A stretch of DNA of 64,000 bases. Origin: an uncultured Cohaesibacter sp. (GTDB lineage Bacteria; Pseudomonadota; Alphaproteobacteria; Rhizobiales; Cohaesibacteraceae). A model generated the notes under the pieces. It was not told the DNA's origin, searched no databases, and was given only the letters and a program-made list of their open reading frames with translations. The DNA lies in NCBI RefSeq assembly GCF_963676485.1, contig NZ_OY781114.1, positions 496,001 to 560,000 of the forward strand, read 5' to 3'. This document shows, in pieces, positions 27,271 through 31,507 of the stretch; position 1 is the stretch's first letter, and each line of letters begins with the position of its first letter. The translations under genes and the position numbers were made by a program.

Positions 27271-27829
27271 AGAAGACGTCTCGACCGCACTTCCGTTCCT
27301 CTTAAAGGGCCGCGTCTGCAAACAAGCAGGGGCGGCCTTTTCATATGCAGCGCTCTTCGGGGCCAGAATCAGTCATTGCATGAGCGTACAGAGCCTTACA
27401 GCGACAGAATCGATTCTTTGAATTGGCCAAAATATCTTCCGAATCCGGTTTTCATGGGCCTTTTTATGAGTCTTTGCGCTCAGGCCAAGCTGTTTTTTTA
27501 TGCCTCAGACGGAAGAATCCGGATCACTCTTCCTCACCAGAATCCTGTTTTTCATTTTCAATCCCCATAGAAGCCCACCAAAAAGCGGCGAAATTCACAT
27601 GGATCCCGTTAAGAATTCAGTAACGAATTGGCAGAAAACCGGGGTATAGCGTCTATTTTGTGTTTTTTGTGCAACAGTCCTCTCAAAGTCATCTCGACAA
27701 ATACGAGAGTCGATTGAACCCGCCGGGGAAACGAGTATTGTCAGTCTTGTCGCAAGCAGTGAATTACAGTTCTGACTGGACTGGTCACTGCAAAATAATT
27801 TTTTTGTTATGACAATGAAGGTCAGAAAC
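27271..27829. other. 559-base region upstream of the porin gene
   Basis: It holds the terminator at 27304-27341, then AT-rich DNA that is likely to carry the porin promoter and a long leader. A short inverted repeat TCTCG/CGAGA lies near 27691-27707. No gene is supported. Confidence 0.5.
27304..27341 (+). terminator. terminator after the DUF3035-like gene
   Basis: GGGCCGC..CTGC pairs with GCAG..GCGGCC(TTTT); an A-run precedes and a T-run follows. Confidence 0.75.
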
Positions 27830-28900
27830 ATGAACATCAAGAGCCTCATCCTTGGCTCCGCAGCTGCTTTGGTAGCTGGCGGTGCAGCACAGGCAGCAGA
27901 TCTGCCAGTAGCGGAACCAGTAGATTACGTTAAAGTATGTGATGCATACGGCGCTGGTTACTTCTTCATTCCAGGTACCGACACCTGCCTGAAAATCTCC
28001 GGTAAAGTTGAATTCGGTGTAGAATCTGGCGGTTTCCAGTCTAAATCTTCAGATGGTGGCACCCCTGAGTACACTCGTTCTGACAATCTGGTTTCCATGT
28101 ACACAGAAACCACCTTCACCTTCGACGTTAAAGAAGAAACCGAACTCGGTACTCTTGCTGCCCACATGGAATTCGATGATGCGTCTGACAGCAATTCAGG
28201 CACAAACACCGCATTCGATAAAGCTTATCTGCAGCTCGGCGGCCTTTATGCTGGTATGACCGACTCCATCGTCGACTTCAACGCTGGCCTCTACTACGAT
28301 GACTTCGGCATCGGCCACGATGATCTGGACGCTATCGGTTATGTAGCTTCTTTCGGTAACGGCGTATCCGCTACCATCGCTTTGGAAGAATACACCGGCA
28401 ACGAAACTGGTGCTGGCACGACCATGCCTTCCGTCGCAGCTCGCTTGGCTGTGAAGCAGGGCTGGGGTTCTGCAAACGTAGCCGGTGCTGTTTATCAGGT
28501 TCGTTATGCTGATGCTACGTACGATACAGATATGGGCTACATCGTTGGTACAGAAGCTTCCTTCAACCTGATGCAGGGCCTGACCTTCGGTATCTCCGCA
28601 GCTTATGAAAATGGCTATGCTAACGATGCCGCAGGTAACCTGTATAGCAAATGGGGCCTGACCGCTGGTCTTGAATATGCTTTCGCTGACAACCTTGTAT
28701 TCGGTGTTGACGCTGGTTACATTGACTATGACGACGAAAACTACAAGACTTGGGGTACTTCCGCTCAGATCACCTACACCCCGGTTGCTAACCTCGAAGT
28801 TGGCGCTCGTGTAGGTTACGAGAAAACTGACGTAAACAGCACCTCTGTTGGTGATTGGGACGACGTAGCAGGCAAACTGTACCTGAAACGTTCTTTCTAA
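27830..28900 (+). CDS. outer-membrane porin, Porin_2 (Omp2b/RopA) family
   Basis: This protein of about 356 residues forms a 16-strand general porin of the Brucella/Rhizobium type. The signal peptide runs from MNIKSLILGSAAAL to AQA, followed by ADLPVAEPVDYVKVCDAYGAGYFFIPGTDTC, the diagnostic N-terminus with two conserved Cys. It ends KLYLKRSF, with the terminal aromatic needed for BAM recognition. ATG 27830 is chosen over 27809 because AAGG lies ~10 bases before it and the signal peptide fits. Codon usage is strongly biased (GCT/GCA, GGT, GTA/GTT, AAA, GAA), unlike the GC-ending codons of its neighbours, which signals very high expression rather than transfer. Confidence 0.94.
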   Translation: MNIKSLILGSAAALVAGGAAQAADLPVAEPVDYVKVCDAYGAGYFFIPGTDTCLKISGKVEFGVESGGFQSKSSDGGTPEYTRSDNLVSMYTETTFTFDVKEETELGTLAAHMEFDDASDSNSGTNTAFDKAYLQLGGLYAGMTDSIVDFNAGLYYDDFGIGHDDLDAIGYVASFGNGVSATIALEEYTGNETGAGTTMPSVAARLAVKQGWGSANVAGAVYQVRYADATYDTDMGYIVGTEASFNLMQGLTFGISAAYENGYANDAAGNLYSKWGLTAGLEYAFADNLVFGVDAGYIDYDDENYKTWGTSAQITYTPVANLEVGARVGYEKTDVNSTSVGDWDDVAGKLYLKRSF

Positions 28901-28937
28901 TCTAAGCTTAGCTTAGACTGGAAGTCCAAGAATTCTG

Positions 28938-28965
28938 GGCCCGAGAGATTTCTCTCGGGCCTTTT
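28938..28965 (+). terminator. terminator after the porin gene
   Basis: GGCCCGAGAGA and TCTCTCGGGCC form an 11-bp perfect stem with a two-base loop, followed by TTTT, 38 bases after the stop. Confidence 0.9.
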
Positions 28966-29076
28966 GCTATATGGCCCCTCAGTTTTTTCGACAAGACTTT
29001 TTTGTCTGCCCACCACGCTGGCAGAAACAGCCTCCCCGCCTAACTTGTTGGAGCATTCAGGCGCAGCGTCTGCTCG

Positions 29077-29877
29077 TTAAAAGAGGTCCAACTGAGTATC
29101 GTCCTCAGGCTTTTCTTTTGGCTCCTTCTTCGCCTTCGTCTCAGGCGGCTTTTCCTTGTTCTTGTTATTCCCATCTGCCGCTGAGATCTGCTGCGTCTTT
29201 ATCGGTTCCGTTACGGACGCATCATCAATGCTTGGATTATTGACGCGATTGGACACGGGATAAGCCACAAGATCATCCGGCAAGGCGCTGCACAGCAACG
29301 GACGGGCTTCATCAAAGCGGCCAGAACGGATATTCAGCCAAGCGTCATGATCATCATGAGAAATGAAGAGGGGCAGTCGCTCGGAGATCTTGCGGAAAGG
29401 CTGCCTCGCCGGAACGGTCAGCAATGCGAGTCCGTCAAATTCCTCGCCATTTGGCCCCATCCAGGGTTCCCATATGCCCGCCAACGCAAACACACGCCCA
29501 TCGGTTCTCCTGAAAAAGTAAGGCCCTCCCTCGCTGCCCTCTTTCTGTCTTTGCCATTCATAAAAACCGGTCACAGGCACCAGGCACCTGCGGTATTTGA
29601 CTGCATTTTTAAAGGACGGCTTCTTCTCGACCGTTTCCATGCGGGCAGTACTGATTTGAGTGAAGTCGCGCGGATCTTTTGCCCAATCTGGCACAAAAGT
29701 CCATTTCATCAGCCGGGCGGTGCGCGCACCATATTCATGGGTGATTGTGAGAACTGGCGTGCCCGGTGCGACGTTATGTCTAGGCGGCATTTTGTGCAAT
29801 CCGGGCAACAACTCTGTGACACCGAAAAATTTAATCAATTCAATCTCTTCTGCCACCAAGTGCAATCTACCGGTCAT
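29077..29877 (-). CDS. variant SRAP (YedK/HMCES-like) protein with C-terminal beta-clamp motif
   Basis: This 266-residue protein has the SRAP fold: PRHNVAPGTPVLTI, WTFVPDWAKDP, RCLVPVTGFYEW and LPLFISHDDHDAWL align by eye with E. coli YedK. SRAP proteins trap abasic sites in single-stranded DNA through Cys2. Here the N-terminus is MTGR instead of MCGR, the Asn of INARxET is replaced (STARMET), and the His of IHDRRP is Ser (ISERLP); only the Glu of GFYEW remains. A ~50-residue Lys/Glu/Pro-rich tail ends exactly in QLDLF, a canonical sliding-clamp-binding pentapeptide. I verified both termini at the nucleotide level. It is either a re-purposed or an inactive replisome-associated SRAP. Confidence 0.88.
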   Translation of the reverse strand: MTGRLHLVAEEIELIKFFGVTELLPGLHKMPPRHNVAPGTPVLTITHEYGARTARLMKWTFVPDWAKDPRDFTQISTARMETVEKKPSFKNAVKYRRCLVPVTGFYEWQRQKEGSEGGPYFFRRTDGRVFALAGIWEPWMGPNGEEFDGLALLTVPARQPFRKISERLPLFISHDDHDAWLNIRSGRFDEARPLLCSALPDDLVAYPVSNRVNNPSIDDASVTEPIKTQQISAADGNNKNKEKPPETKAKKEPKEKPEDDTQLDLF

Positions 29878-30180
29878 GAGCGTCCAATTCGATTTCTTCT
29901 AAAGGGTTTGCTAAATATTTATCCTGTTTCATCTTTTTCACCGACGTGGTCTCACGTCAAGTATTTGGAAACTATAGCACCTTATGGTTAAGTTGGACCG
30001 TCTTTGGAAACCGCTTATTGCAGATATGTGGCGACGAAAACCGGGATCACATATCTTGCTCAAAGTCGTAAATCTTGCGGCGATTGGCATGAAGATATCG
30101 CTCCTGTGTTGCCCATAAAGCTATTTCGAAGACTGGTCGCGTCACCTGAATGCCAATGAAGTTGCGTTGAGAGTCACACG
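29878..30180. other. 303-base divergent region between the SRAP gene and the gene at 30181
   Basis: No gene is seen. One copy of TTAACCAT on the minus strand (29984-29991) is a CtrA-like 8-mer. No GAAC-N7-GTTC LexA box is visible. Confidence 0.5.
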
Positions 30181-30690
30181 ATGTCAGAAATGTCTACACT
30201 TCCTGATGCGAAATTGTTGCAGGACGCCAACATCAACCCATCGACGTTGCTCGCGACGGACTATCTCAACCATTTTAATGAAGTGCTGATGCTAATCGAA
30301 ATGCTGTCAGCCATGCCGGAATGCGCCGAAGACATTGTTGCCTGGCGCCCAATGGGCTACTCGGACTATTTCCAGCAATCCACCTTCAAGGAAAAACAAC
30401 TCGCCATTTCCCTTTATGCCTCCGTGCAGCCCGAGATGCGCGACCAGCTGGAATCGCTCGTGCATGAAATCGACGTCAAGATTGAGGGATTGATCGAGCG
30501 CATCGTGGATCTCAATGGCGATCTCTCGAATGAGTTTCTCGATAGCGTCGCCTTCATGGCTTCCACCGAAGTTCGTCCGCTGATCGATCGCGTGAGCGCG
30601 CTGATCAATGATACGGCCAACGCCACCGACTGGATGCTGGCCATCGATCACCCAACGGCACAGGACGAAGTCGACCGTCTGTTCGACTGA
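30181..30690 (+). CDS. uncharacterised alphaproteobacterial protein with FliM-like C-terminal motif
   Basis: This 169-residue soluble, helical protein has no signal peptide. It begins with INPSTLLATDYLNHFNEVLML, a pattern I associate with an uncharacterised alphaproteobacterial family. The C-terminus is TAQDEVDRLFD, closely matching the FliM N-terminal CheY-binding peptide pattern (SQxEIDALL) and the terminal motif of the CheZ-like protein in this window (SQDDIDALFG). No CheC/CheX phosphatase motif is evident. I infer a possible CheY-interacting or chemotaxis accessory role; nothing in the immediate neighbourhood proves it. Confidence 0.7.
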   Translation: MSEMSTLPDAKLLQDANINPSTLLATDYLNHFNEVLMLIEMLSAMPECAEDIVAWRPMGYSDYFQQSTFKEKQLAISLYASVQPEMRDQLESLVHEIDVKIEGLIERIVDLNGDLSNEFLDSVAFMASTEVRPLIDRVSALINDTANATDWMLAIDHPTAQDEVDRLFD

Positions 30691-30808: not shown

Positions 30809-31507
30809 TCAGGCCTCGTCTTCTTCGACAATCCATGGCTCCTTCAGAGCCTCTTCTTCCCATTCCTTCCAGGCAGGCAGGGTTTTGATGGCGAAGCGGT
30901 AGGCATGAAACACTTCGCTATCGGTAAGCTCGTATTTCTCAAAGCGATTGATAACCGGAGCAAACATGGCATCCACGGCCCCGAAAGAGCCAAACAGGAA
31001 GGGGCCACCGGATGCATCAAGGCATTCGCGCCAGATCTGCTCGATCCGTTCGACATTTTTGACCACGGCAGCCGCGCTATAAGGGTCCAGATCCAGCCGC
31101 TTGGCTTCCCGGCGGATGTTCATCGGGCATGAGCCTCTCAGCCCGAAAAAGCCGCCATGCATTTCAGCGGCATAGGCCCGTGCCCGTGCGCGCTCCATGA
31201 CATCGACCGGCCAGAGCCCGGCTTCAGGGAAAATATCTGCAATCGCCTCAAGAATGGCAAGACTCTCGCAAATGATCACTGGCTCTGCACCCTCTTGCTC
31301 GATTTTCAGAGCGGGCACCTTCTTGGTCGGCGAATATTCGATGAAATGGGCGTGGCCTGTGGCTTCGTCAAACTGCAAAAGATGCTCGGTGAAGACGATA
31401 TTCTTGGTCTTCATGGCAATCCATGGCCGCAAAGACCAGGAGGAGTAATTCTTGTTGGCGATATAAAGCGTCAATTTGAGATGATCAGCAGAAATTAGGT
31501 CGGTCAT
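30809..31507 (-). CDS. glutathione S-transferase family protein
   Basis: This 232-residue protein has an N-terminal thioredoxin-like domain with NKNYSSWSLRPW, whose Ser/Tyr region serves glutathione activation in this subgroup. KVPALKIEQ with the cis-Pro, then the gamma-glutamyl-binding CESLAILEAIADIFP follow, and then the all-helical C-terminal domain. The closest named relatives by pattern are YfcF-type and maleylacetoacetate-isomerase-like GSTs; the substrate is unknown. It is transcribed alone, converging on the gene at 30181. Confidence 0.9.
   Translation of the reverse strand: MTDLISADHLKLTLYIANKNYSSWSLRPWIAMKTKNIVFTEHLLQFDEATGHAHFIEYSPTKKVPALKIEQEGAEPVIICESLAILEAIADIFPEAGLWPVDVMERARARAYAAEMHGGFFGLRGSCPMNIRREAKRLDLDPYSAAAVVKNVERIEQIWRECLDASGGPFLFGSFGAVDAMFAPVINRFEKYELTDSEVFHAYRFAIKTLPAWKEWEEEALKEPWIVEEDEA

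Follow-up and report, generated by a model that had tools for sequence, protein, structure and literature searches.

A SRAP-family protein with a substituted active site and a terminal clamp-binding-like motif in an uncultured Cohaesibacter

In the available passages of their description of the SRAP family, Aravind and colleagues call Cys2 absolutely conserved and describe SOS contexts for the family (PMC3765255). The human member HMCES has been suggested to travel with replication forks, bound to the sliding clamp PCNA through a C-terminal PCNA-interacting peptide (PIP) box, while the accessible part of PMC8053108 argues that an AlkB homologue 2 PCNA-interacting motif (APIM) fits better. On the bacterial side, the available sections of a clamp review (PMC11139829) give the clamp-binding consensus QL(S/D)LF, define the motif as Q-aliphatic-x-[L/M]-[F/L], name QLDLF as the strongest clamp-binding peptide and describe negatively charged flanks or free C-termini as usual. 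Here we describe a SRAP-fold gene from an uncultured Cohaesibacter sp. (contig NZ_OY781114.1, positions 496,001 to 560,000; this stretch of 64,000 nucleotides is called the window, and coordinates are counted within it) whose product ends in QLDLF and carries threonine in place of Cys2. We call this form type A', the canonical SRAPs of the same locus in the genus type A, and a second, separate clade of intact SRAPs type B. The features of the gene are:

29077..29877, minus strand: SRAP-fold gene, type A', 266 residues, MTGR...QLDLF
29080..29094, minus strand: QLDLF, C-terminal clamp-binding-like motif, residues 262-266 (reading frame translation, orthologue conservation, SRAP survey)
29077-29079, minus strand: stop codon of the SRAP gene
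29095..29199, minus strand: linker, residues 227-261, containing Lys, Glu and Pro, predicted disordered and fast-evolving, with an acidic EDD immediately before the motif
29872..29874, minus strand: Thr2 codon, replacing the catalytic Cys2 (alignment to C2 of E. coli YedK)
29647..29649, minus strand: Thr77 codon, replacing YedK Asn75 (alignment)
29557..29559, minus strand: Glu107 codon, corresponding to YedK Glu105, retained (alignment)
29383..29385, minus strand: Ser165 codon, replacing YedK His160 (alignment)

The minus strand at 29130..29077 reads AAG AAG GAG CCA AAA GAA AAG CCT GAG GAC GAT ACT CAG TTG GAC CTC TTT TAA, that is KKEPKEKPEDDTQLDLF followed by the stop, and the protein closes with DTQLDLF, so that the ending named in the original prediction holds codon by codon. 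A stop lies 8 codons upstream of the ATG with no ATG, GTG or TTG in between, which makes Thr2 secure, provided that the frame is translated. PF02586 (SRAP) spans the whole domain, covering profile positions 1-214 of 214 and scoring 184.7 bits where the cut-off is 27.1, and the protein passes a test for the SRAP three-dimensional fold; the NCBIfam profiles matched this protein only below the cut-off (65 vs 349 bits). The tail had also been described as flexible and rich in Lys, Glu and Pro, and this agrees with the composition of the linker (9 K, 5 E and 4 P per 35 residues) and with AlphaFold predicted local distance difference test (pLDDT) values below 50 for residues 229-256 and 258-266; the model is consistent with a flexible, accessible, disordered C-terminus.

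Some form of the motif closes all ten type A' orthologues of the genus (seven QLDLF, two QFDLF, one QLTLL), together with Thr2 in nine and Ser2 in one; its absence from close homologues, which the original prediction had named as the outcome that would speak against it, was looked for and not seen. Mean pairwise identity among the ten, with gaps counted, is 0.68 in the domain and 0.19 in the linker, and rises to 0.85 over the last five residues. The ratio of non-synonymous to synonymous substitution rates (dN/dS) was calculated for nine of the 45 pairs, those with a domain dS below 1.5, and amounts to 0.075-0.106 in the domain and 0.27-0.58 in the linker, some ratios being approximate because domain synonymous divergence reaches 1.05, and the nine pairs not being independent, which lessens their weight, because they are drawn from two clusters of four and three proteins. 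One canonical type A pair gave 0.198 over its whole length. Within the last five codons, seven of the nine close pairs show synonymous changes, and the sole replacement is L/F at position 2. The terminal motif and the SRAP domain of A' are under purifying selection.

A family-wide survey of 290 loci yielded 283 unique SRAPs; these loci are a subset of the profile matches that leans to high profile scores, 80 of them, the named loci, being the best 80 of 584 as ranked by a query that included the tail, and a script picked their start codons, which in a few rows may be the wrong ones. Scoring a strict motif, Q[LMIVFA]x[LM][FL], and a relaxed one, Qxx[LMI][FLI], both at most two residues from the C-terminus, we found the former in 95 and the latter in 160 of the 283; with Phe disallowed at position 2, which is nearer the published definition, the motif remains in 84. 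It is common in the alphaproteobacterial members of the main subfamily (score at least 200), where 151/213 carry the relaxed and 92/213 the strict form (135/185 and 79/185 when the window's genus is left out), in genera that include Roseibium, Labrenzia, Devosia, Bradyrhizobium (QGSLF), Agrobacterium (QMSLF), Rhizobium, Ensifer and Aminobacter. Among the remaining SRAPs with scores of at least 200, five of 23 have the relaxed form, two of these being metagenome-assembled genomes (MAGs) without an assigned class. The original prediction had coupled the motif to the loss of Cys2. This coupling does not hold in the survey: an intact C-N-E-H core is found in 139 of the 151 motif-bearing and in 59 of the 62 motif-less alphaproteobacterial SRAPs, and motif and catalysis are therefore uncoupled. 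Since most motif-bearers keep the core, the parallel with HMCES is one of the SRAP family, within which the window protein is derived; the C-terminal PCNA motif invoked for that parallel is stated at second hand, and its PIP class is disputed in favour of APIM in the part of PMC8053108 available. Two Armatimonadota SRAPs (L144, L146) end in EMRLF and ELRLF, a version of the motif with Glu for Gln in another phylum.

A five-residue motif invites the question of chance. A search of the 5.08 Mb genome at the level of DNA gives 18 matches to the pattern Q[L/F]x[L/F]F plus TRR, and a reversed control gives 20, so that such matches stand at chance, as that explanation would have it. Only two of the 18, however, close open frames of at least 100 residues, namely the SRAP gene and that of a PA0069-family radical SAM protein, and the family-wide recurrence of the motif contrasts with its frequency in shuffled 25-residue tails (n=56,600; strict 0.055%, relaxed 0.25%). 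None of 767 other open frames of at least 250 residues from the SRAP loci has the terminal motif. A chance match, to which we give practically no credence, was rejected on the survey compared with the shuffles together with orthologue conservation and dN/dS. Nor do we find much in favour of A' being a decaying copy, redundant beside type B, with its motif kept by inertia: the changed active site, the presence of type B and the lack of the gene in four genus genomes are what decay would predict, but the domain dN/dS is low, none of the ten copies has an internal stop, the replacements are consistent (T or S, then T, S or I, then S or T), and the motif is retained at the end of a fast-evolving linker. 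This makes decay very improbable, and a pseudogene is ruled out by dN/dS. The terminal motif might also be selected for a role other than clamp docking, for instance to bind a different partner or as a signal for stability, and 28 of the 283 SRAPs, with most of the genus's type B proteins among them (xTLF or xSLF), do have an LF-like end without Gln. Against this, 160 of the 283 keep both the Gln and the spacing that the published consensus for clamp binding requires, the unrelated radical SAM family has a like ending and the clamp pocket is largely conserved, and we consider another purpose unlikely.

Docking on the clamp is the best-supported function of the motif, because the tail, EDDTQLDLF-COO-, fits Q-aliphatic-x-[L/M]-[F/L] and the DnaN of the same genome keeps most of the binding pocket, namely nine of the ten residues listed in the available part of PMC11139829, with R246K as the difference. 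Judged from sequence, A' very probably binds DnaN through its terminal motif. QLDLF would dock on the beta sliding clamp and the disordered tail would hold the SRAP domain near replicating DNA, a tether that appears to be common among alphaproteobacterial SRAPs with intact active sites. Several observations weigh against this picture. Three positions of the genome's DnaN (278, 346, 361) differ from E. coli among eight further ones that we added as presumed clamp positions. The docking motif is short, at five residues; it is missing from 62 of the 213 main-subfamily alphaproteobacterial SRAPs and from E. coli YedK, which ends in AELIQPV; and QGSLF, like QFDLF in two of the ten A', deviates at position 2 from the published definition. 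In one canonical type A protein (L042), QLSLF lies five residues short of the end and is not terminal. On a fast tree of the 213 rows, the relaxed-motif label requires 28 changes, so the motif has been gained or lost often and is common, not fixed.

Relative to YedK, the window protein has Thr for Cys2, Thr for Asn75 and Ser for His160, with Glu105 kept, and the ten orthologues agree: residue 2 is T in nine and S in one, T, S or I stands at position 75 and S or T at position 160 in 10/10, and Glu105 is E in all. Within the genus, C, N, E and H are retained in canonical type A (four proteins) and in type B (14 proteins). As Cys2, Asn75 and His160 are all replaced, A' does not qualify as a crosslinker of the YedK/HMCES type. 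All ten A' keep R4, W67, R77, E105, T149 and R162 (YedK numbering), several of which we take to be DNA contacts. In a wider tally, which leaves out nine proteins scoring 80 or less, the core is intact in 239 of 274 SRAPs, and the combination of replaced C2, N75 and H160, retained E105 and a clamp motif is confined to the ten A'. Outside A', Cys2 is replaced by another letter in 11 proteins and falls in a gap in two more; only one of the 11 (L170, from a Paenochrobactrum MAG) carries the motif. It has Pro2, an intact N-E-H core and the ending QFSLF, and could reflect true variation or an error in the contig. Three SRAP-like proteins from another class of the same phylum (L297, L299, L300) have Thr2 or Ala2, Cys at position 75, V, L or I for Glu105 and no clamp motif; by sequence they are another, more altered SRAP branch.

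What chemistry such a protein could perform is suggested by thiol-less YedK, which, in the available parts of PMC9436759, forms a Schiff base through its N-terminal amine and cleaves apurinic/apyrimidinic (AP) sites, a lyase activity that is 25-fold slower with E105Q and 2.5-fold slower with H160Q, while the effect of N75A at internal AP sites is modest. In Cohaesibacter, most members carry an intact type B, and the proposal is that the resident type A was lost or rebuilt as A'; the rebuilding would have turned Cys2, Asn75 and His160 into Thr, Ser or Ile and spared Glu105, a small residue 2, several positions presumed to contact DNA, and the clamp motif. A free amine at residue 2 of A' would require removal of Met, which a small residue 2 (Thr, Ser) permits. 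A' would then still bind abasic sites near the clamp and give a transient Schiff base, possibly with strand cleavage, instead of a stable thiazolidine crosslink, which is not expected of A' without the thiol. Our full best explanation, a clamp-tethered abasic-site protein that makes a transient Schiff base and not a stable crosslink, is one we hold to be likely. For the Schiff-base/lyase chemistry taken by itself we stay a little short of even chances; it is the leading guess from the sequence, with a scaffold close behind. Several active-site positions of A' are changed together, crosslinking by YedK is slowed at least 10-fold when His160 is changed, and the lyase data come from C2A YedK, not from a Thr2 protein, all of which tells against the proposed chemistry. 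Against the explanation as a whole, A' does not retain W68 and R85, presumably DNA contacts in YedK, though the canonical type A and the type B SRAPs of the genus do not retain them either.

Alternatively, A' might be a non-catalytic scaffold or competitor that binds single-stranded DNA or abasic sites non-covalently at the clamp and perhaps restrains type B, the intact SRAP, or else translesion polymerases, a role close to the recognition or scaffold protein of the original prediction. The replacement of Cys2, Asn75 and His160 in 10/10, the retention of the fold, the motif and several presumed DNA-contact positions, and the co-occurrence of type B in 10/10 all accord with such a scaffold, but Glu105, which has been described as catalytic, does not vary in 10/10, and residue 2 stays Thr or Ser, fitting Met removal and hence a reactive N-terminal amine. 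A scaffold role is thus possible, though we rate it below even, and the residues that A' retains fit Schiff-base/lyase chemistry at least equally well.

The history of the locus bears on how A' arose. Its neighbouring genes, and the type B SRAPs of the genus, are:

27809..28900, plus strand: porin (Porin_2; PF02530, E 2.9e-52; synteny), conserved neighbour at one side
30181..30690, plus strand: conserved gene, neighbour at the other side, 65-74% identity across six genus regions compared; no Pfam, NCBIfam or PADLOC match
30809..31507, minus strand: glutathione S-transferase-like gene (PF13409), synteny anchor in 18/18 genus genomes
G000:C1:692544-693173 (L001), plus L045-L052 and L073-L077: type B SRAPs

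The transferase-like neighbour lies at most 3 kb from a SRAP match in the 14 genomes with A or A'. A SRAP sits between the homologue of the 30181..30690 gene and the porin in both L314 (canonical A) and L315 (Ser2 A'), and in the four genomes with type B only (L310-L313) the block is intact in 4/4, with about 250 bp and no SRAP at that place. In the tree, the ten A' group together (Shimodaira-Hasegawa-like approximate likelihood ratio test, SH-aLRT, 85) beside the four canonical type A (SH-aLRT 98 for the union), and type B forms a separate clade. The window protein occupies the same locus as the canonical SRAPs of the genus. Of the 18 genus genomes, ten have A' together with B, four only canonical A, four only B and none canonical A with B; two of the four with canonical A only, G005 (64%) and G009 (90%), have the lowest completeness in the genus. 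A second, intact SRAP thus accompanies A' in every case, and this looks like one replacement history, in which B was present and A was lost or rebuilt into A'. The co-occurrence suggests a cause without proving it, and its weight is reduced because A' is one clade in one genus, so that the link is one evolutionary observation and not ten. Whether labour is divided between A' and type B seems, from the sequences, an even call. Type B C-termini are TLF or SLF in 12 of 14, mostly without Gln (two QTSLF, one QRSLF), and the window genome's own copy ends in SKTLL; type B may therefore bind the clamp weakly or not at all.

No sigma-70-like promoter was found at 28850-30250, and PADLOC gave no match for the three window proteins scanned. 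For SOS control we scanned, with at most one mismatch, for GTTC-N7-GTTC, which we take to be the alphaproteobacterial LexA box: 34 matches in the window against 41 expected, with none between 29878 and 30180, led us to reject it. An 80-residue frame antisense to the SRAP start (window 29660-29902, plus strand) ends in QFDFF, probably a chance match to the pattern.

The PA0069-family radical SAM protein (NF033668, 534 bits; G000:C1:478209-479261, minus strand, locus L093) ends in AQLSLF. Its relatives are L320-L349. In 30 loci of this family (own genome included), sampled from 41 matching genomes among 100 searched, the terminal test gave 20/30 strict and 24/30 relaxed, and by eye 30/30 show Q..[LM][FLI] or QMALDL near the end. 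From sequence, this family is possibly a second family of clamp-docked repair enzymes; no paper joining PA0069 with radical SAM was found among open-licence papers.

A term search of the SRAP description PMC3765255 finds neither clamp nor PCNA, and one of the clamp review PMC11139829 finds neither SRAP nor YedK. Among open-licence papers, and in a broader search among the matches listed, which gives weak evidence of absence, we found no link between SRAP and the bacterial clamp, no proteome-wide study of clamp-binding motifs and DnaN and no literature on Cohaesibacter SRAPs. A PCNA site in its flexible tail reportedly brings HMCES to forks; the passages available do not treat the way in which bacterial SRAPs locate abasic sites in replicating DNA. 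The recurrence of the clamp motif suggests that SRAP was tied to the resident sliding clamp in bacteria and in eukaryotes alike. It is tempting to speculate, though we find it rather doubtful as a whole, that Alphaproteobacteria run a clamp-recruited SRAP pathway analogous to the PCNA-tethered HMCES, and that in Cohaesibacter the tethered copy, once a suicide crosslinker, is now a reversible Thr2 Schiff-base lyase beside an intact crosslinking SRAP. Such a pathway would have escaped notice for want of such a tail on the model enzyme YedK. If this is true, abasic sites in Cohaesibacter meet two opposite fates, one of them fixed at the clamp. A' is a natural experiment: its crosslinking thiol is gone, Glu105 and the tether persist under purifying selection, and crosslinking can therefore be told apart in it from functions linked to the clamp.

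Compared with the described systems, E. coli YedK has C2, N75 and H160 in 222 residues and no such tail, whereas the window protein has T, T and S and a 40-residue tail ending in QLDLF. The canonical type A SRAPs of the genus share locus and clade with A' and, like many alphaproteobacterial SRAPs, the same kind of C-terminal motif, but canonical SRAPs retain the C-N-E-H core, of which A' keeps only Glu. HMCES is a crosslinker and uses another clamp, PCNA, and another class of peptide, be it the PIP box as proposed or APIM (PMC8053108, in part). Pol II, Pol IV and Pol III alpha carry, according to the available text of PMC11139829, a motif in the C-terminal tail with the Q-L-x-L-F consensus seen in A', but they are polymerases. 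YedK C2A (structure 8d2m) is like A' in having no thiol while keeping Glu105 and the N-terminal amine, and it makes a Schiff base and cuts at AP sites (PMC9436759, in part); it is, however, a laboratory mutant with H160 and N75, whereas A' occurs naturally and has Thr2 or Ser2. The SRAP fold and the clamp motif are thus both known, and their combination with a non-canonical active site is a new variant.
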